A DNA stretch of 64,000 bases from Bacteroidota bacterium. Lineage in GTDB: Bacteria; Bacteroidota; Ignavibacteria; Ignavibacteriales; Ignavibacteriaceae. The DNA is taken from contig JADFPP010000006.1 of the NCBI GenBank assembly GCA_022562275.1, positions 1 to 64,000 on the forward strand, read 5' to 3'. A model generated the notes under the pieces. That model was not told where the DNA came from. It saw only the letters and a list, made by a program, of their open reading frames with translations, and searched no databases. Position numbers and translations under genes: made by a program. How positions within the stretch are numbered: the stretch's first letter is position 1; each line of letters begins with the position of its first letter. This document shows, piece by piece, positions 15,141 to 30,308 of the stretch.

Positions 15141-16130
15141 TTATCTGCCGTTCCTATCAATCCACCTTGCAGCATCTTTAGCAAAGTATGTAAGGATGAT
15201 ATCTGCGCCCGCACGTTTTATCGAAGTAAGAGATTCAATCATAACGCGTTCTTCATCAATCCAGTCATTTTGTGCGGCAGCTTTAATCATCGAGTACTCG
15301 CCACTTACCTGGTAAGCCGCTGTTGGCATTCCGAATTTTTCTTTAACTTTTTTGATTACATCAAGGTATGGTCCCGCAGGTTTAACCATAACAATATCGG
15401 CGCCTTCTTCTATGTCTGCTTCAACCTCTCTTAATGCTTCATTAATGTTTCCAATATCCATCTGATGCGATTTTCTATCTCCAAAAGCCGGGCTGGATTC
15501 AGCAGCATCCCGAAAGGGACCGTAGTATCCCGAAGAGTATTTTGCTGCATAACTCATTATCGGGATTTTTGTATATCCTTTATAATCCAATGCTTTTCTA
15601 ATGGCGAACACCCTTCCATCCATCATATCCGATGGAGCAACCATATCAGCACCCGCCTCTATATGTGATACTGCTTCTTTTGCAAGGAGTGCAATTGTTT
15701 CATCATTTAAAATTTCTTCACCATCTATTAATCCGCAATGTCCGTGAGAAGTATATTCACACAAGCACACATCAGTTATAACAAGCAGATCTTTTACTTC
15801 CTGTTTAATCGCACGGATAGCTTTTTGAACAATGCCATTCGGATCGTAAGCTTCGGAGCCCTGCTCGTCTTTGTGTTCGGGAATTCCAAAGAGTATAATT
15901 GCAGGTATTCCCAGGTCTCTAACTTCCTTACATTCTTCAACTAATGTATCTATTGAATACTGAAAAACACCCGGCATTGATTTTACCGGATTTTTTACTT
16001 TCTTGCCCGGTAGAACAAATAATGGATAGATAAAATCATTTTTTGAAAGTTCTGTTTCCCGCACCATATCTCTAATGATGGGATTATAACGTAATCTTCT
16101 GAATCTTTTAAAGTTGAACTTAGTTTCCAT
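15141..16130 (-). CDS. hemB: Delta-aminolevulinic acid dehydratase (porphobilinogen synthase)
   Basis: It condenses two 5-aminolevulinate molecules to porphobilinogen. The 329-residue TIM barrel carries a three-cysteine zinc site C122-x-C124-x7-C132 ([14 protein letters not shown]), so a Zn-dependent enzyme is expected. The two Schiff-base lysines are in [12 protein letters not shown] (K197) and [10 protein letters not shown] (K250). The length is normal. The gene lies in the same direction as hemG/hemY but is separated from it by a four-helix-bundle gene with repeat flanks, which may have split an original hem operon. Confidence 0.96.
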
Positions 16131-22595: not shown

Positions 22596-23996
22596 TCATA
22601 CTGTTCTAGAATACTTTGCCTTATCTTCCTTCCTTTCAATGTATCCATCAAAATTCATTGCTATGTTGCGGATGAGCAGTCTGCCCATATCTTTAACCTT
22701 AATGCCGTCATCAGATAGTTCAACCAACTCATCATTTTGCATCTCTCTCAGACCGCCTTCGCCGGAGTTCAGTCCCCGGGCAAAGTAATCTTTAAAGTTA
22801 ATATGGAATTTTTCTTCAAGTGATTTAAAGTCCAGTTCGAAATCGCACATTAAACGCATTATTACTTCTCTGCGAATGTGATCATCTTCGCTAAGCTTGT
22901 AACCTTTTGCCGTAGGAATTATTTCATCATCTAGCGATTTATAATATTCCTTTTCTGTTTTGTAATTTTGTGCGTAAATATTTTTTAACTGACTAATAGA
23001 TGTAATACCAAGCGCATAAAGATCGGTACCGGCGTTGGTACTGTATCCCTGAAAATTTCTGTAAAGTTTTTTTTCTTTAAGTGCTATAGATAACTCATCA
23101 TCCGGTTTAGCGAAGTGATCCATTCCAATAAAAACATAACCCGCATCAGTAAGCTGTTCGATTGATGATTTTAATATTTCCAACTTAACTTCAGGAATTG
23201 GAAGATCCTCCTGATGAATTAATGCCATATGTTTTTTTAACCATGGAACGTGGGCATAGTTAAATAATGCTATTCTATCCGGAGAAATATCAATAATTTT
23301 ATCAACAGTATCTGCAAAGCTTTTAGCTGTTTGGAAAGGCAATCCGTATATCAAATCGAGATTTATACTTTGATAACCAAGCTCTCTTACCCACTCAACG
23401 GCTTGTCGTGTAATATCTTCCGGCTGAATTCTGTTAATTGCTTTCTGAACCTTATCGTTAAAATCCTGAACACCCATGCTTATTCTGTTAAAACCGCTAT
23501 TTTTCAGTGCTTCAAGGTGGGCTTTTGTTAATTCACGCGGATCAATCTCGCAACTGTTTTCCGATCCGCCTGAGGCGGACTCTTTAAATTCGAATGATTT
23601 GTTGATGTACGAAGCAAGCAGGTCTATTTCATCCGGGTTTAAATGAGTTGGTGTTCCTCCGCCCCAATGGTGCTGTGCAACTTTCCTGTCGGGCAAAAGA
23701 TATGTTCTTAAAAGATCAATCTCTTTTTGAACATATTTTATGTATTCTTTTATGCGGTCTCGGTTTCTTGTTATAAGCATATTGCATCCGCAGAAAAAGC
23801 AAAGAGTATCGCAATAAGGAAGATGAAAATACAGGGAGAGATCGGGAAGATTGTTCCCGTAGTTTGTTTTAACTATTTCATCGATGTAATCTTCTTGTGT
23901 AAATTTTTCATTGAACTGAGGAGCAGTTGGATAACTGGTGTACCGCGGTCCGGGTTTATCATACTTCTTATATTTCTTTAAATCTATTTCAAACAT
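22596..23996 (-). CDS. hemN: Oxygen-independent coproporphyrinogen III oxidase (radical SAM)
   Basis: It decarboxylates coproporphyrinogen III to protoporphyrinogen IX without oxygen. The 466-residue protein begins with the HemN signature KYDKPGPRYTSYPTAP. The [4Fe-4S]/SAM motif is C62-x3-C66-x2-C69 (YCDTLCFFC), with a fourth Cys at 71 as in true HemN. WGGGTPTHL, EIDPRE, SMGVQDF and DLIYGLPFQT are conserved, and the C-terminal RNIAMNFDGYI is HemN-specific rather than HemW-like. Residues 139-147 (ESASGGSEN) are a short insertion coded by a palindrome at 23565-23579. The last ~27 codons are a diverged copy of the native tail left at 21360-21445. It is the terminal gene of the hem operon, 45 bp from hemE. 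Confidence 0.95.
   Translation of the reverse strand: MFEIDLKKYKKYDKPGPRYTSYPTAPQFNEKFTQEDYIDEIVKTNYGNNLPDLSLYFHLPYCDTLCFFCGCNMLITRNRDRIKEYIKYVQKEIDLLRTYLLPDRKVAQHHWGGGTPTHLNPDEIDLLASYINKSFEFKESASGGSENSCEIDPRELTKAHLEALKNSGFNRISMGVQDFNDKVQKAINRIQPEDITRQAVEWVRELGYQSINLDLIYGLPFQTAKSFADTVDKIIDISPDRIALFNYAHVPWLKKHMALIHQEDLPIPEVKLEILKSSIEQLTDAGYVFIGMDHFAKPDDELSIALKEKKLYRNFQGYSTNAGTDLYALGITSISQLKNIYAQNYKTEKEYYKSLDDEIIPTAKGYKLSEDDHIRREVIMRLMCDFELDFKSLEEKFHINFKDYFARGLNSGEGGLREMQNDELVELSDDGIKVKDMGRLLIRNIAMNFDGYIERKEDKAKYSRTV
23565..23579. repeat. Palindromic element inserted in hemN
   Basis: TCCGCC-TGA-GGCGGA is a perfect 6-bp inverted repeat inside hemN. It encodes part of ESASGGSEN where E. coli HemN has a shorter segment before EVDPRE. 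Similar GC-rich palindromes are common as dispersed repeats in AT-rich genomes of this group. Confidence 0.6.
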
Positions 23997-24041: not shown

Positions 24042-25109
24042 CTATTGAATTACTCTATCTCTATAATGAAATGCTGTACTCTCTTCTTTTATAAAATCTA
24101 CCAATGCTTTTGCATGACTGGGATCAACATCGGGCAAGATACCATGACCAAGATTAAAGATGTGACCGGGACCATTACCATAAGAAAGAAGAACTTTTTT
24201 GGCTTCCCTTTTTATAAAACTTGGTTCAGCATATAGAACAGTTGGATCAAGATTTCCCTGTATCGCAACTTTGTCTCCAATTTTATCCCTTGCTTTGGCA
24301 AGGTCAATAGTCCAATCAACGCCGATTACATCTGCACCGCAATCAGCGACTGTTCTCATTCTATAATGAACACCTTTGGGGAAATATATAATTGGTTCAC
24401 CATTCCTTTTTATTTTCTCAATAACCTGGTTAACATACTTTAATGCAAAAATCAAGTAATCCCTGGGGGATAAAATTCCAGCCCAGGTATCAAATATTTG
24501 TACTGCATCTGCACCGGCGCTTATTTGTGCAGAAAGATAATCCGCAACAGCATCAGTTAATCTATTCAGCAAATTATGCGCCAGTTCCGGATTATTGTAG
24601 ATAAGTTTTTTTACAAATGAAAAAGTTTTACTCCCATGTCCTTCAGCCATATAAGCAAGTAATGTCCATGGTGCCCCGCTAAAACCTATGAGCGGAACCC
24701 GTCCGTTCAATTCTTTTTTAGTTAGAGAGATTGCATCGAGCACATATTTAAGATCTTCATTGGCGCTTATCTGTTTAAGCTTATTTGCATCTGTTTCAGT
24801 TCTAATCGGAGTATCGAATACCGGACCTTGTGTTTCATGCATTTTCAGATGCATTCCCATAGCTTCCGGGATCATAAGTATATCGGAGAAAATTATTGCT
24901 GCATCAACCCCAATTATATCAACAGGTTGTATCGTTACTTCAGCCGCCAGTTCAGGTGTTTTACACATTGTTAAAAAATCTGTTTTAGCCCGGATAGCTC
25001 TGTATTCCGGCAGATATCGTCCTGCCTGTCTCATTATCCAAATGGGGGTTCTTTTTACAGGGAGTCTTTTACAAGCTCTTAAAAACAGATCATTTTGTAG
25101 GTCTTCCAA
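24042..25109 (-). CDS. hemE: Uroporphyrinogen decarboxylase
   Basis: It removes four acetate carboxyls from uroporphyrinogen III to give coproporphyrinogen III. The 355-residue protein carries the family signatures PVKRTPIWIMRQAGRYLPEYR (Arg/Asp active-site strand) and IIFSDILMIPEAMGM. GFSGAPWTLLAYM, FDTWAGILSPRDY and GNLDPTVLYA are also present, with GNGPGHIFNLGHGILPDV near the end. It is intact and 18 bp downstream of the TetR-hemD gene. Confidence 0.97.
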   Translation of the reverse strand: MEDLQNDLFLRACKRLPVKRTPIWIMRQAGRYLPEYRAIRAKTDFLTMCKTPELAAEVTIQPVDIIGVDAAIIFSDILMIPEAMGMHLKMHETQGPVFDTPIRTETDANKLKQISANEDLKYVLDAISLTKKELNGRVPLIGFSGAPWTLLAYMAEGHGSKTFSFVKKLIYNNPELAHNLLNRLTDAVADYLSAQISAGADAVQIFDTWAGILSPRDYLIFALKYVNQVIEKIKRNGEPIIYFPKGVHYRMRTVADCGADVIGVDWTIDLAKARDKIGDKVAIQGNLDPTVLYAEPSFIKREAKKVLLSYGNGPGHIFNLGHGILPDVDPSHAKALVDFIKEESTAFHYRDRVIQ

Positions 25110-25127: not shown

Positions 25128-26522
25128 TTAATTTTTATAGTAGTTTATTATTTTATTTATTAATCCATCACTTGTATACTCGTCCGGCATTATATTAACC
25201 TTTACTCTTCTGTTTTCAATTGTAGTTTTTGTTGTTGGTCCGATTGCAGCTATATCATATTCTTTAAAGTATTCTGCAGGATTAATAATATTAAGTATTT
25301 GTAAAAAGTTTTCAAATGTTGATGGACTTGTAAAAATAAACAGATCGGGATTACTTTTATTTAACTTTTCCAAATTATATTTAATATGCTCCTTTGTTGG
25401 AAGTGAAACATTGTAAACGGGAACAGATTTAATAATTGCACCTAAATCTTTCAATCCTCTCGGCAGCTCTTCTCTTCCTATTGCAGAACGAGGAATAAAA
25501 ACAATTTTATCTTTTATATCAAATTTAGAGAGTTCTTCGATCACTCCCTTTGCGCTGAATTGTTTTGGAATAATTTTCACAGGAATGTTATATTTATTGC
25601 AAACTAACGCGGTTTTATTTCCAACGGCAACAATTCTTTTCTTGTTGAAATTCATACTAACATTTAGTTCTTTGTATCGTATGCTAAACATCTGAACTGC
25701 GTGAGCAGAAGTAAAAATTATAAAATCTATTTTATCATGTTTTAGAACAATGGAATCAAAAGCATCCCAATCAAGAGGCGGAACAATTTCGAGAGTAGGA
25801 AATACGATTACCTTTGCTCCAAACCTTGTTAATGCAGAAGCAGATTCTTGGGATTGCTCAACTGTTCTGGTTATTACTATTGTTTTCTCTTTTAATGGAA
25901 GCACAACATTGTTCTGAAATCCGGAGTAGAGTGCATGAAGAAAAAATTCAAACAACTTTTCTCTTTCAGTTATTTTTTGTTCTTCACTTAATTTTCGATT
26001 GATGTCTCTTTCAACCGTTCCGTAAATACTCCCCAGTATTGAATGGGCTGTGAATTCATCATCAACATTTCGGAAAAGATCATTATTTATTCCTTCACGG
26101 ATAATTCCGGATAATTGTGATTTTAGCTGTCCCTCTAGGAAGCGCAATTCATCACACAAGTCACTTTCGGAATTAAGTGATTCTCTTTTATACATCAGAA
26201 AGAAATTCTGATATTTCATCATAAACATATAAACATGTATTGTATATGAACGAAGAGAATCAATGCTGTTGTGTTCATTTTTTATTTTTTTGGTAAGAGA
26301 GTCAAGAAGATTTTTCATTCTTAAGCTCATTATAGAAAAGTAGAGCTCTTCCTTAGATGTGAAATAGTTATAAACTGTTCCTTTGGCAACACCAATCATC
26401 TTTGCAACATCTTCCATCATAACTTCATGATAACTTTTCTGCGAGAAAAGATCAGCAGCTGCTTCAAGTATACGTTCACTTTTAATCCCCTTTTTAACCC
26501 TTCTTTTTTCTTTTACTAACAT
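25128..26522 (-). CDS. hemD: TetR-family regulator fused to uroporphyrinogen-III synthase
   Basis: The 464-residue protein has two complete modules. Residues 12-205 are a TetR repressor, with a helix-turn-helix at about 37-56 (MEDVAKMIGVAKGTVYNYF) after ERILEAAADLFSQKS and a helical ligand-binding/dimer part. Residues 212-464 are HemD, which cyclises hydroxymethylbilane to uroporphyrinogen III. It begins KTIVITRTVEQSQESASALT and carries FTSAHAVQMF, AVGNKTA, FIPRSAIGREELP, FTSPSTFENF, AAIGPTTKTT and YTSDGLI. No stop or start separates the two. The gene lies in the hem operon between the lipoprotein gene (8 bp) and hemE. TetR-type palindromes occur in the operon promoter (30219-30235, 30273-30286), so autoregulation is likely but inferred. 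Confidence 0.93.
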   Translation of the reverse strand: MLVKEKRRVKKGIKSERILEAAADLFSQKSYHEVMMEDVAKMIGVAKGTVYNYFTSKEELYFSIMSLRMKNLLDSLTKKIKNEHNSIDSLRSYTIHVYMFMMKYQNFFLMYKRESLNSESDLCDELRFLEGQLKSQLSGIIREGINNDLFRNVDDEFTAHSILGSIYGTVERDINRKLSEEQKITEREKLFEFFLHALYSGFQNNVVLPLKEKTIVITRTVEQSQESASALTRFGAKVIVFPTLEIVPPLDWDAFDSIVLKHDKIDFIIFTSAHAVQMFSIRYKELNVSMNFNKKRIVAVGNKTALVCNKYNIPVKIIPKQFSAKGVIEELSKFDIKDKIVFIPRSAIGREELPRGLKDLGAIIKSVPVYNVSLPTKEHIKYNLEKLNKSNPDLFIFTSPSTFENFLQILNIINPAEYFKEYDIAAIGPTTKTTIENRRVKVNIMPDEYTSDGLINKIINYYKN

Positions 26523-26530
26523 TTTTTATT

Positions 26531-27139
26531 CTACCTTATATTCCAGTCATTCATAGCCAGCACTTCACCATTAGCCGGATCAATGATCATTTCCTTGCCG
26601 GTTCCTCTATATCCAAAATCACCAGTAAATTCACGGATTGTTGATAATATATACCACACATAAAACTGTCTTTCCGGGTTCCAAATAAATTTGACCTGCC
26701 ATTCTTTAATTCCTTTTGCCAGGCCATTTTCTTTGGCAATATTTATTGCGGTTTCCTTATCTATTTGCCAATTGTACTGAGCTGGTTTGTTTTTACAATT
26801 CGGTATGCCGATTATATCCCTATCTTTAATAACATTACCGTTACTATCAACAGTAAATGTTATTAACGCATTTACATAAGGCTTATCCGGTATGTAAAGA
26901 TTGTATGCCATTTCATAATAAGGTGGAGTGTAGTTGGATTTTTCGATATTAGAAGTAATATAACTTTTAAAAAATTCAAGACCTGTTTTAGAGATGACAA
27001 ACACATTCGCTTTATGAAGCACTTTAAATGGAACTACGGATTCTCTCTGCTTACCGGAATCGGAGCTGCATGAAGATAAGTTTATACCAATAGCAAAAAA
27101 AATAAAAGGTACTGATAAAGATTTTAATAATTGCTTCAT
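26531..27139 (-). CDS. Hypothetical lipoprotein in the hem operon
   Basis: The 202-residue protein has a lipoprotein signal peptide (hydrophobic h-region, lipobox LSSC with Cys24). The mature part (LITFTVDSNGNVIKDRDIIG, WQVKFIWNP, FYVWYILST, GKEMIIDPANGEVLAM) resembles the strand-helix-strand layout of PepSY-like domains, but the match is weak. Its ATG overlaps the hemC stop (ATGA) and the TetR-hemD gene follows after 8 bp. It is therefore translated with the heme genes, which suggests a linked envelope role that I cannot specify. Confidence 0.75.
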   Translation of the reverse strand: MKQLLKSLSVPFIFFAIGINLSSCSSDSGKQRESVVPFKVLHKANVFVISKTGLEFFKSYITSNIEKSNYTPPYYEMAYNLYIPDKPYVNALITFTVDSNGNVIKDRDIIGIPNCKNKPAQYNWQIDKETAINIAKENGLAKGIKEWQVKFIWNPERQFYVWYILSTIREFTGDFGYRGTGKEMIIDPANGEVLAMNDWNIR

Positions 27140-28083
27140 ATTGTCCTGGAAGAATTATAAATTTCCTTTAATACTGATTTAGCCCCAGCCTTTAGTAAAT
27201 CCTTTGCAAGAGATTTACCAAGAAGCTCCGGATTTTTTTTGCTGCCCCTTAGATTCTTTCTAAAAGTAATCATCCCGTCTAAAGAGCCAACCATAGCATC
27301 GAGATAAAGCCCGTTTGCTTTTACCTGAGCTAAGGCGCCGATAGGAACCTTACAGCCTCCCTCAAGAGTTTTAAGCAAAGATCTTTCTGCCAGCACTGCT
27401 TTATAGGTATTTTCATGATGAATTGAATGGAGAAGTTCTTCTACAAAAGAATTCTCTTTGTGAATTTCTAAACCAAGAGCACCTTGTCCAACCGCAGGCA
27501 GCATTATTTCTGTACTAATATTTGATGAAATATATTTTTTTAGATTCAATCTTTCTACACCTGCCCTGGCTAATATAATTGCATCCCACCCGGATTCGAG
27601 AAATTTATCTATTCTTGTTGGAACATTACCCCTGAGATCGACTATTTTTATATCAGGACGAATATGCAATAGCTGACAAGTCCTTCTTAATGATCCGGTT
27701 GCAACAACAGCTCTCTCTTTCAGATCATTTATAGTGATTCCCTTTTTCCCCGCGATCAAAACATCTTCTACATGATATCTTTTTGTAACAGCGGCAAGTT
27801 TTAGTCCTTTTGGTATTTCCGTCTGCAAATCTTTCAGACTATGAACAGCCAGGTCTATTTTTCTTTTTAGTAACTGTATCTCAAGTTCCTTTGTGAATAA
27901 ACTTTTATCGCCTATTTTGGAAAGAGCTACATCGAGTATTTTATCTCCCTTGGTATTTATAATTTTTATATCAACTTCAATATTCTGATTTTTTCTTTCC
28001 AGTTCTCTTTTAATATAGTTTGCCTGCCACAATGCCAGCTTACTTCCCCTGGAACCGATTATAACTTTAGATTTTTTGTTCAT
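27136..28083 (-). CDS. hemC: Porphobilinogen deaminase (hydroxymethylbilane synthase)
   Basis: It joins four porphobilinogens into hydroxymethylbilane. The 315-residue protein shows IGSRGSKLALWQANYI at the N-terminus. HSLKDLQTEIPKGL contains the active-site Asp, GSLRRTCQL and DLRGNVPTRIDKF are basic substrate-binding segments, and EGGCKVPIGA carries the cofactor-attaching Cys244. It overlaps the hemA stop by four bases (ATGA) and the next gene in the same way, so translation is coupled through three genes. Confidence 0.97.
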   Translation of the reverse strand: MNKKSKVIIGSRGSKLALWQANYIKRELERKNQNIEVDIKIINTKGDKILDVALSKIGDKSLFTKELEIQLLKRKIDLAVHSLKDLQTEIPKGLKLAAVTKRYHVEDVLIAGKKGITINDLKERAVVATGSLRRTCQLLHIRPDIKIVDLRGNVPTRIDKFLESGWDAIILARAGVERLNLKKYISSNISTEIMLPAVGQGALGLEIHKENSFVEELLHSIHHENTYKAVLAERSLLKTLEGGCKVPIGALAQVKANGLYLDAMVGSLDGMITFRKNLRGSKKNPELLGKSLAKDLLKAGAKSVLKEIYNSSRTI

Positions 28084-29366
28084 GTTTTATTTTCTTTAGA
28101 TTCGGGCGTATCGATTCCGAACAAGCTTCTTATTATTCCCATTTTTGTAGCAGCTTCTTCAGCGCCTGTACCTGTTTCATTAGTTTTTTTTAATTCAACT
28201 ATCGGATGATGAAGTATTTTATTGATTATCCGTTTGGTAACGATTTCAAGTTTTTCTCTGTCTTCAGAAGAAAACTTATTAATGTTCTTTTCAACCTCTT
28301 CGGCTCGAATTGCATCGAAGTGGTCTCTTAAATTTTTTATTGTTGGAGCTGATTGCAGGGAGTTATACCATTCAAAAAAAGAATTAAGCTCCTCCTCTAT
28401 AATTATTTTTACCTTGGGAATTTCCTTTCTTCTCTTAGCAACATTTTGCCCAACAATAATATTAAGCGAATCTATATCATGGTAGAAAACATAATTTATC
28501 TCTTTCGATGCAGGATCGATATCTCGCGGTACTGCTATATCCATAAGCACCATAGATGCATAACCTCTTTTCTTCATTGCCGCCTCAACATCCTGTTTTT
28601 TTATCAGAATACTTTCCGAACTGGTTGCGCTGATAACAATATCATATTTATGAAGATGATCTTTAAATTTATCGAAAGGTACAACATAAGAATTGAATTT
28701 TTCTGCAAGCTTTGCTGCTTTTTCAGTTGTTCTGTTTGTAATTACAAGGTGTGATATTCCTTTGTCGTTAAGGTGTTTTGCTGCAATCTCTCCCGTTTCT
28801 CCGGCACCAATAACCAATGCCGATTTTTTATTAAGGTTTGAAAAAATTTTCCCTATCAATTGAACAGCAGCATAACTTACAGAAACTGCGCCTTCAGCTA
28901 TTGCCGTTTCTGATATTGCTCTTTTCCCAACTTTTAGTGCCGAATCAAATACACGCCGCATTAAAAATCCGGCAAATTGCATTTCCTCAGCAATCTGAAA
29001 TGAATCTTTTACCTGCTTAAAAATCTGGTTATCTCCAATCAGCATAGAATCAATCCCGGCTATTACAGAAAAAAGGTGATTGAGAGAGTCACGAGAAATA
29101 AATGTCTGAAAACTGTCAGCAGAAGTGGTTGTTGAATTTTTACTTTCTGTAATTATTTTTTGGAGATGTAAATGAGTTATATCTTTATTTACAGGAATGC
29201 CATAGATCTCGGTGCGGTTACATGTGGAAATTAAAAGACCTTCGGTAAAATATTTGTTTTTTATTTTTTTTATTAATTCTCGCACTTCATTTTCACTAAG
29301 ATAAAGAGATTCTCTTAACTTAACCGGTGCGGTTTTATGATTTATTGATACAGCTAAAAGGTTCAT
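28080..29366 (-). CDS. hemA: Glutamyl-tRNA reductase
   Basis: It reduces glutamyl-tRNA(Glu) to glutamate-1-semialdehyde, the committed step of C5-pathway tetrapyrrole synthesis. The 428-residue protein has SINHKTAPVKLRE, the catalytic Cys49 in STCNRTEIYG, SMLIGDNQIFKQVKDS, and the NADPH fold LVIGAGETGEIAAKHL. A C-terminal dimerisation domain ends in a ~30-residue tail. Presence of HemA implies the C5 route; hemL, the next enzyme, is not in the window. The start lies 6 bp after the ccsA/hemX-like gene. Confidence 0.97.
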   Translation of the reverse strand: MNLLAVSINHKTAPVKLRESLYLSENEVRELIKKIKNKYFTEGLLISTCNRTEIYGIPVNKDITHLHLQKIITESKNSTTTSADSFQTFISRDSLNHLFSVIAGIDSMLIGDNQIFKQVKDSFQIAEEMQFAGFLMRRVFDSALKVGKRAISETAIAEGAVSVSYAAVQLIGKIFSNLNKKSALVIGAGETGEIAAKHLNDKGISHLVITNRTTEKAAKLAEKFNSYVVPFDKFKDHLHKYDIVISATSSESILIKKQDVEAAMKKRGYASMVLMDIAVPRDIDPASKEINYVFYHDIDSLNIIVGQNVAKRRKEIPKVKIIIEEELNSFFEWYNSLQSAPTIKNLRDHFDAIRAEEVEKNINKFSSEDREKLEIVTKRIINKILHHPIVELKKTNETGTGAEEAATKMGIIRSLFGIDTPESKENKT

Positions 29367-29372
29367 CTAATA

Positions 29373-30197
29373 TTAATAGAACGAATGAAAACTATGTGCT
29401 AAAAAATTTGTTAGTATTGTAGAAAATATCGCAATAAGAAATCCTGTTATTGATAGAAGGATCAGCTTTTTCCCTCGCCACTTCGAGAAGAATTTAGTGA
29501 AAATACCTGCCCCATACAGCATCCATACAATGCCCGTTCCTATCAGTTTGGGATCCAGGAATGAAAATTTTGGAAACGCACTCGGTAGCCAGATAACACC
29601 TATTATTATTGCAACAGTAAGAAGAATAAATCCAATGACGGCTGAATAAAAACTTAATTTCTCCAGAACTTCTAGATTTGGAAGACGATTAAATATTAAA
29701 CCGAAACGATTATGTTTGAGATCATTGTATAATGTGAGATATAAAAATCCATACACAGCAGAAATTGTAAAGCCCGAATAACCCAATAATGCATTAACAA
29801 CATGAATTCCAAGTAGATTATTCTTTAGTACTTCTTTCACAACAATTTGGTCTGCAATAAACAAAGATGATATCAGTTGAAAAACCAATGAGATTATTAT
29901 TATAAATGGTCCGGTACCCCGTATGTCTGTTATAAGTTCCAGCAGGAAATAAGAAAAAGTTATTGAAAATGCCAATACAGTAAAGATTTCAAAAACATTT
30001 GTAATTGGAGGGTGATCGAACTCGCTTGTTCTAATCAGTAAGTATATTAAATGAGTAAAAAGTGTTAAAAAGATAAAAAGTCGTTTTACGTTTACAAATT
30101 TCTTTTCTCCCTTCATAAAATCGTAAAAATATACTGAAAAAGTTCCCAGGTATATAATGGGCAAAAGAACGTTTAAGAAGTGAATAACAGGTGTCAT
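29373..30197 (-). CDS. CcsA/HemX-like cytochrome c assembly membrane protein
   Basis: The 274-residue protein has about eight membrane segments and belongs to the CcsA/CcmC/HemX heme-handling family. GIHVVNALLGYSGFTISAVYGFLYL contains a conserved His-region helix (the family's heme-ligand His is H130-like), and WLPSAFPKFSFLDPKLIG replaces the usual WWD-type loop, while the C-terminal FLAHSFHSFY carries paired His residues. A HemX-type protein next to hemA is a common arrangement: in Bacillus HemX lowers GluTR levels, and in Bacteroidota CcsA moves heme for cytochrome c. It is the first gene of the hem operon, with AAAAGG about nine bases before the ATG. Confidence 0.8.
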   Translation of the reverse strand: MTPVIHFLNVLLPIIYLGTFSVYFYDFMKGEKKFVNVKRLFIFLTLFTHLIYLLIRTSEFDHPPITNVFEIFTVLAFSITFSYFLLELITDIRGTGPFIIIISLVFQLISSLFIADQIVVKEVLKNNLLGIHVVNALLGYSGFTISAVYGFLYLTLYNDLKHNRFGLIFNRLPNLEVLEKLSFYSAVIGFILLTVAIIIGVIWLPSAFPKFSFLDPKLIGTGIVWMLYGAGIFTKFFSKWRGKKLILLSITGFLIAIFSTILTNFLAHSFHSFY

Positions 30198-30218
30198 CTA
30201 AATTTACCTTTTATTAAA

Positions 30219-30235
30219 TTGACTTGCCAGTCGAA
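30219..30235. promoter_or_regulatory. Candidate TetR-type operator, promoter-proximal site
   Basis: TTGACT-TGCC-AGTCGA (GACT/AGTC arms, 30221-30232) lies 24 bp upstream of the ccsA/hemX start. Its reverse-oriented partner is at 30273-30286. Aligned in the same direction (TGACTTGCCAGTCG against TGACTTGCTGGTCA) they agree at 11 of 14 bases. The TTGAC-N-GTCAA format is typical of TetR-family operators. Confidence 0.6.
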
Positions 30236-30272
30236 AATTAGAAATATTTTATATAAAACGCAAGAGAATAAT

Positions 30273-30286
30273 TGACCAGCAAGTCA
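30273..30286. promoter_or_regulatory. Candidate TetR-type operator, promoter-distal site
   Basis: TGAC-CAGCAA-GTCA is an inverted repeat about 52 bp from its partner, roughly five helical turns, so dimers on both would face the same side. Between the sites the minus strand has TTGCG...TATAAAA and TAATTTTC, plausible promoter elements. The TetR-hemD product of this operon is the obvious candidate binder. Confidence 0.6.
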
Positions 30287-30308
30287 TTTTAATGTCATTA
30301 TCTGTGGA

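Follow-up and report, generated by a model that had tools for sequence, protein, structure and literature searches.

Several metabolic enzymes, among them BirA, PutA and NadR, are DNA-binding trigger enzymes that repress the genes of their own pathways, and their effectors are known. For uroporphyrinogen-III synthase (HemD), the nearest precedent is NnaR (SCO2958, MSMEG_0432, Rv0260c, and MAB_3520c), an actinomycete orphan response regulator that is needed for nitrate/nitrite genes and in which HemD is fused to an OmpR/PhoB-type DNA-binding domain (PMC6277429, PMC11162112). In S. coelicolor, the HemD of NnaR was reported to be inactive, and M. smegmatis carries a separate hemD elsewhere in its genome (PMC6277429, PMC11162112). 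A different group of regulators, the FadR-type TetR repressors, includes T. thermophilus FadR, which recognizes the site TTRNACYNRGTNYAA (PMC5597230). Here we analyzed a 64,000-nucleotide stretch of an Ignavibacteriaceae genome (contig JADFPP010000006.1; hereafter the window), in which a single gene, tetR::hemD, encodes a TetR-type repressor joined to HemD within the hem operon, and we describe a candidate operator for this protein at the promoter of its own operon. A search of the open-access literature found no published TetR-HemD fusion.

Results

Reading of the sequences upstream of ccsB, the first gene of the hem operon, revealed a 14-bp palindrome, TGACY-N4-RGTCA, that recurs in genomes carrying the fusion. 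A site was counted as an operator when at least 9 of the 10 fixed bases matched within 250 bp of ccsB. The palindrome was present at the hem promoter in 31 of 37 fused genomes, compared with 0 of 19 genomes whose hem operon contains hemD in unfused form; the genomes surveyed in this work are mostly metagenome assemblies. The fused total combines 26/32 genomes of a first set, for which the counts are descriptive because the motif was first seen in the same data, with 4/4 genomes of another family of the same class (f13) and one additional genome (G015). One genome whose operon is split in the assembly (G001) was counted as fused. After the motif had been fixed, all four f13 genomes were found to carry a perfect copy, TGACCAGTCAGTCA, 19 bp ahead of the start codon of ccsB, and in G015, where the hem promoter lies on a different contig, TGACTAATGAGTCA is located a short distance upstream of ccsB. 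In shuffled promoters, 9/10 bases were reached in 1.1% and 8/10 in 16% of cases. Moreover, genome-wide searches indicated that the palindrome is rare, with few exact places per genome and, in one genome (G173), only that at the hem promoter. Three unfused lineages that neighbour fused lineages or are interspersed with them (G046, G009, and G033) also lack it. The operator suggested by these comparisons is the main new result of this study.

In the window, two candidate operators were located around a predicted promoter on the minus strand. O1 (TGACTTGCTGGTCA, 30273–30286, minus strand) matches the palindrome exactly, sits just upstream of −33 and is conserved in fused relatives, and O2 (CGACTGGCAAGTCA, 30220–30233, minus strand), with one mismatch, shares its first base with the end of the −7 element and spans the predicted transcription start. 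The promoter (30233–30263, minus strand), assigned by its match to the consensus, consists of TTG at 30261–30263, a 20-bp spacer and TAATTTTC at 30233–30240. The pattern TTG-N20-TAnnTTT(G/C), which we take to be the Bacteroidota −33/−7 promoter form, occurs between O1 and O2 in most fused genomes. The two sites are 53 bp apart in the window and 52–53 bp apart in most genomes that have both, with spacings of 44, 49, or 113 bp in a few. The first bases of O2 are often GAAC instead of TGAC, which may reflect the overlap of O2 with the end of the −7 element. A preliminary description of this locus, made from the sequence alone, had proposed that the fusion protein may sense a pathway intermediate or heme and repress its own operon, and had named the region 30198–30308 as its target. 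Both palindromes fall inside that region, and the distribution of the palindrome across genomes lends strong comparative support to the proposed repression.

The other recurrent intergenic place of the palindrome is the region upstream of lpd-lipB, where it was detected in 14 of 20 testable fused genomes vs. 0 of 30 genomes without the fusion (p 4e-8, a value that ignores shared ancestry). In genome G000, this site (contig C75: 49351–49364, outside the window) starts 95 bp upstream of lpd, which encodes dihydrolipoamide dehydrogenase and is followed by lipB; the site is conserved in fused relatives. Only a single site was found at lpd, upstream of the −33 element, and its distance to the −7 element was 55 bp in most genomes with a recognized −7, 65 bp in one and 76 bp in one, steps that approximate one and two helical turns. 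The −7 match at lpd was not clear in G018, G027, and G035. A recurrent palindrome within the ybaB coding sequence was discounted as reflecting coding conservation. hemB (window positions 15162–16109) was also considered as a target, and no exact or one-mismatch TGAC-N6-GTCA was found nearby; hemL is located on contig C135.

The fusion gene (25128–26522, minus strand) was defined from its open reading frame, profile searches, and a predicted structure. The frame starts with ATG, encodes 464 residues and has zero internal stops. Residues 14–200 form a TetR/FadR-like repressor, a linker extends over approximately residues 201–212, and uroporphyrinogen-III synthase occupies residues 213–464. Pfam searches matched TetR_N (PF00440) at residues 18–62 (E 4.6e-16; 58.8 bits vs. 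a cut-off of 24) and HEM4 (PF02602) at residues 227–455 (E 2.6e-48; 164.6 bits vs. a cut-off of 27.5), the latter over profile positions 3–230 of 231 and thus at full length. In the same searches, TetR_C_24 scored below its own cut-off, and no winged-helix domain was matched in the protein, in which TetR_N stands before HEM4. An AlphaFold model built from 36 fused homologues had a mean predicted local distance difference test score of 88.5 and a predicted template modelling score (pTM) of 0.64; because of this pTM, the placing of the TetR half relative to the HemD half is uncertain. In the model, the N-terminal half is predicted to comprise nine helices, including the all-helical ligand-binding/dimerization domain, and its template modelling score (TM-score) against whole TetR structures was mostly 0.75–0.87 by target length, with B. 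subtilis FadR (3whb) as the best predicted fold match (TM-score 0.87 by target length). The modelled HemD half matched HemD structures, with a TM-score of 0.74 to human UROS (1jr2).

Conservation was then compared along the protein. The helix-turn-helix (HTH) is the best-conserved region of the fusion, with a mean column identity of 79% and 16 of 49 residues invariant, and the ligand domain of the TetR half, at 61%, is less conserved than the rest of the protein. Unfused relatives conserve 28 HemD positions, and 27 of these are retained in at least 91% of the fused proteins. One of the retained positions, the invariant Y370, aligns with human Y168, a residue discussed as catalytic. The one exception is N274: 96% of unfused HemD have Asn here, and the fused proteins of the window's family mostly have His and sometimes Tyr. 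The fusion is also the only HEM4 gene, and the only hemD, of the window's genome. Judged by these sequence features, both halves of the fusion look functional. Because no in-frame ATG in the linker is conserved among fused proteins, it is unlikely that a separate HemD is made from an internal start.

The preliminary description had read one frame with a complete TetR and a complete HemD inside a hemA-hemC-hemD-hemE-hemN operon, and had named a frameshift or assembly join, and separate tetR and hemD genes in close relatives, as findings that would speak against it. The composition of the frame was borne out by the open frame and the profile scores. The same fusion, 39–80% identical, recurs in dozens of other genomes, including the single-contig assemblies G001, G006, and G023, and an assembly artefact was therefore rejected as its source. 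The relatives carry either the fusion or, in an otherwise unchanged operon, a stand-alone hemD in the same slot, and no separate tetR was seen beside hemD in the operons inspected. The listed hem genes were all present, and two genes had been omitted, namely the leading ccsB and a lipoprotein-like frame, so that the full order is ccsB-hemA-hemC-lipoprotein frame-tetR::hemD-hemE-hemN.

Profile searches identified the remaining genes of the operon, all on the minus strand: a ccsB/ccsA-like cytochrome c assembly protein (29373–30197), hemA for glutamyl-tRNA reductase (28080–29366), hemC for hydroxymethylbilane synthase (27136–28083), hemE for uroporphyrinogen decarboxylase (24042–25109), and hemN for oxygen-independent coproporphyrinogen III oxidase (22596–23996). 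The lipoprotein-like frame between hemC and the fusion (26531–27139, minus strand; 202 residues) matched no Pfam or NCBIfam family and is kept at the hemC-hemD position by many relatives with the fusion and some without it.

Of the 164 genomes of the order, 47 carry the fusion at full or nearly full length, counted as search rows covering both domains, and three further copies are split or run off a contig end. The fusion is present in all six genomes (6/6) of the window's genus. Within the order, it occurs in families f1 and f3, and the matches found in f2 are HemD alone. Outside the order, the four f13 genomes carry it, and no further family with the fusion was found among 395 genomes sampled across the phylum at E 1e-45 or better, a threshold that very diverged copies could escape. 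On a HemA+HemC tree, the fusion label requires at least six changes, four of which are forced by well-supported branches, and on the HemD tree some unfused copies nest near fused ones. One genus is mixed, with the fusion in G023, G087, and G090 and an unfused HemD of a different branch in G088, G089, and G091, which looks like a replacement. A second, unfused hem operon in G018, on the short contig C27 (L081) and with the same HemD as G033, was a probable contamination and was excluded from the counts. In addition, one genus has a tandem pair of HemD-like domains in its hem operon (L090 in G013, also in G097; frames of approximately 570 residues). No HemD match was obtained in G030, G082, and G085, from a genus with fused relatives, which suggests that the pathway is lost or strongly diverged there; G030 also lacks the lpd palindrome.

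Discussion

The fusion enzyme very probably regulates its own pathway. On the comparative evidence, the best explanation, with a probability of roughly 0.8, is that an active HemD represses its own operon and controls lpd-lipB. The C-terminal half would be the cell's working uroporphyrinogen-III synthase, and the N-terminal half, a putative FadR-type TetR repressor, would bind TGACY-N4-RGTCA as a dimer. At the hem promoter, protein bound to O1, upstream of the −33 element, and to O2, over −7/+1, would block RNA polymerase, resulting in repression, rather than activation, of the entire operon from ccsB to hemN. With repressor and HemD fixed at 1:1, the repressor level would equal the enzyme level and the operon would be self-limiting. 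A ligand would not be needed for such autoregulation, because each repressor is one HemD and operon output would drop as the enzyme accumulates; a ligand, such as the substrate or product of HemD, heme, or an acyl-CoA in the TetR pocket, would probably tune it. Tetrapyrroles are bound by the HemD half, whereas the TetR half is similar to proteins that respond to acyl-CoA. In the window's family, lpd-lipB would be controlled through the one site upstream of the lpd promoter. More speculatively, occupancy of the HemD active site may itself be the signal, with bound hydroxymethylbilane or uroporphyrinogen III altering the grip of the TetR half on DNA and thereby setting heme supply and lpd-lipB expression.

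Several observations weigh against repression by the fusion protein. The Fisher p of 4e-9 for the first set (26/32 fused vs. 0/19 unfused) ignores shared ancestry. Within one genus, the fused genomes G023, G087, and G090 (L073, L188, and L189) lack the site at the hem promoter, and a genome-wide search for the exact pattern found no copy anywhere in them, so that either the specificity changed or the regulation was lost there; in this genus, operator loss perhaps preceded loss of the repressor half. In three other fused genomes (G006, G034, and G078), only 8/10 bases match, at the O2 position, as also happens in 16% of shuffles. In family f3, fused genomes carry the palindrome at hem and not at lpd. 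Finally, the sites could be bound by a different TetR protein with a similar specificity, although their co-occurrence with the fusion argues against that.

This last point bears on the possibility that HemD is active and the TetR half controls other genes, the hem and lpd palindromes belonging to a different transcription factor. Separate TetR proteins are indeed present in fused genomes, and the palindrome is missing from G023, G087, and G090; it nevertheless tracks the fusion over many genera, at two unlinked promoters, in four genomes of a separate family and through lineages without the fusion, and we regard this possibility as improbable. We consider it slightly less probable still that the HemD half has lost its enzyme activity and acts purely as a sensor, a reading to which the reportedly inactive HemD of S. 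coelicolor NnaR and the separate hemD of M. smegmatis might point: the fusion is its genome's only HEM4 gene, stands in an otherwise complete hemACDEN operon and retains the conserved HemD residues. The lower conservation of the ligand domain (61%) could be taken to mean that the fusion is a neutral accident whose TetR domain is a passive or dimerizing appendage without DNA binding, but the HTH is the most conserved region and has a matching operator, which makes such an accident extremely improbable.

Activation at some promoters, above all at lpd-lipB, through contact with RNA polymerase instead of its blockage, is a real though minor possibility. The lone lpd site upstream of −33, at 55 bp from −7 in the majority of genomes and at 65 or 76 bp in two others, combines a fixed helical phase with a single upstream position, and activation is therefore possible there. 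On the other hand, TetR proteins are mostly repressors, the second site at hem covers +1, and the start sites were taken from the consensus, with no clear −7 match in G018, G027, and G035.

If an active HemD represses its own operon as proposed, a mid-pathway heme enzyme appears to be the repressor of that operon, with a target site identified and conserved across families, and a single purified protein with a 110-bp fragment would suffice to test the whole loop. In Ignavibacteriales-type bacteria, heme synthesis would moreover be connected with lipoylation and lipoamide dehydrogenase. Should the active-site signal also hold true, one polypeptide would gauge the flux that it carries and set both the hem operon, with cytochrome c assembly, and a component of lipoate-dependent dehydrogenases.

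The proposed regulator differs from each of the known systems. BirA, PutA, and NadR are different enzymes with different folds and DNA-binding domains. Stand-alone HemD, methyltransferase-HemD, and HemD-HemX share the enzyme domain and the operon place of the fusion, but the partners in known HemD fusions are pathway proteins (HemX and methyltransferase) and not a TetR repressor. The TetR half is most similar to FadR proteins that respond to acyl-CoA: the FadR/PfmR group (B. subtilis FadR 3whb and T. thermophilus PfmR 3vpr) gave both the best predicted fold matches (TM-score 0.86–0.87 by target) and the best sequence matches, and the score against the Bacillus FadR equivalog NF053878 was 67.7, below the NCBIfam cut-off of 200. 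The fusion palindrome and the site of T. thermophilus FadR have an ACY...RGT core in common, at a different spacing. FadR/PfmR proteins stand alone and act mostly on fatty acid genes, whereas the candidate targets of the fusion are hem and lpd-lipB. NnaR and TetR-HemD both carry HemD and a DNA-binding domain in one chain, but HemD comes first in NnaR and the TetR domain first in TetR-HemD, and NnaR uses a winged helix where TetR-HemD has a TetR HTH. NnaR acts on nitrogen genes, whereas TetR-HemD is the sole HemD, lies in the hem operon and has a candidate operator on its own promoter. TetR-HemD appears to be an active counterpart to NnaR, whose HemD half has no known purpose.
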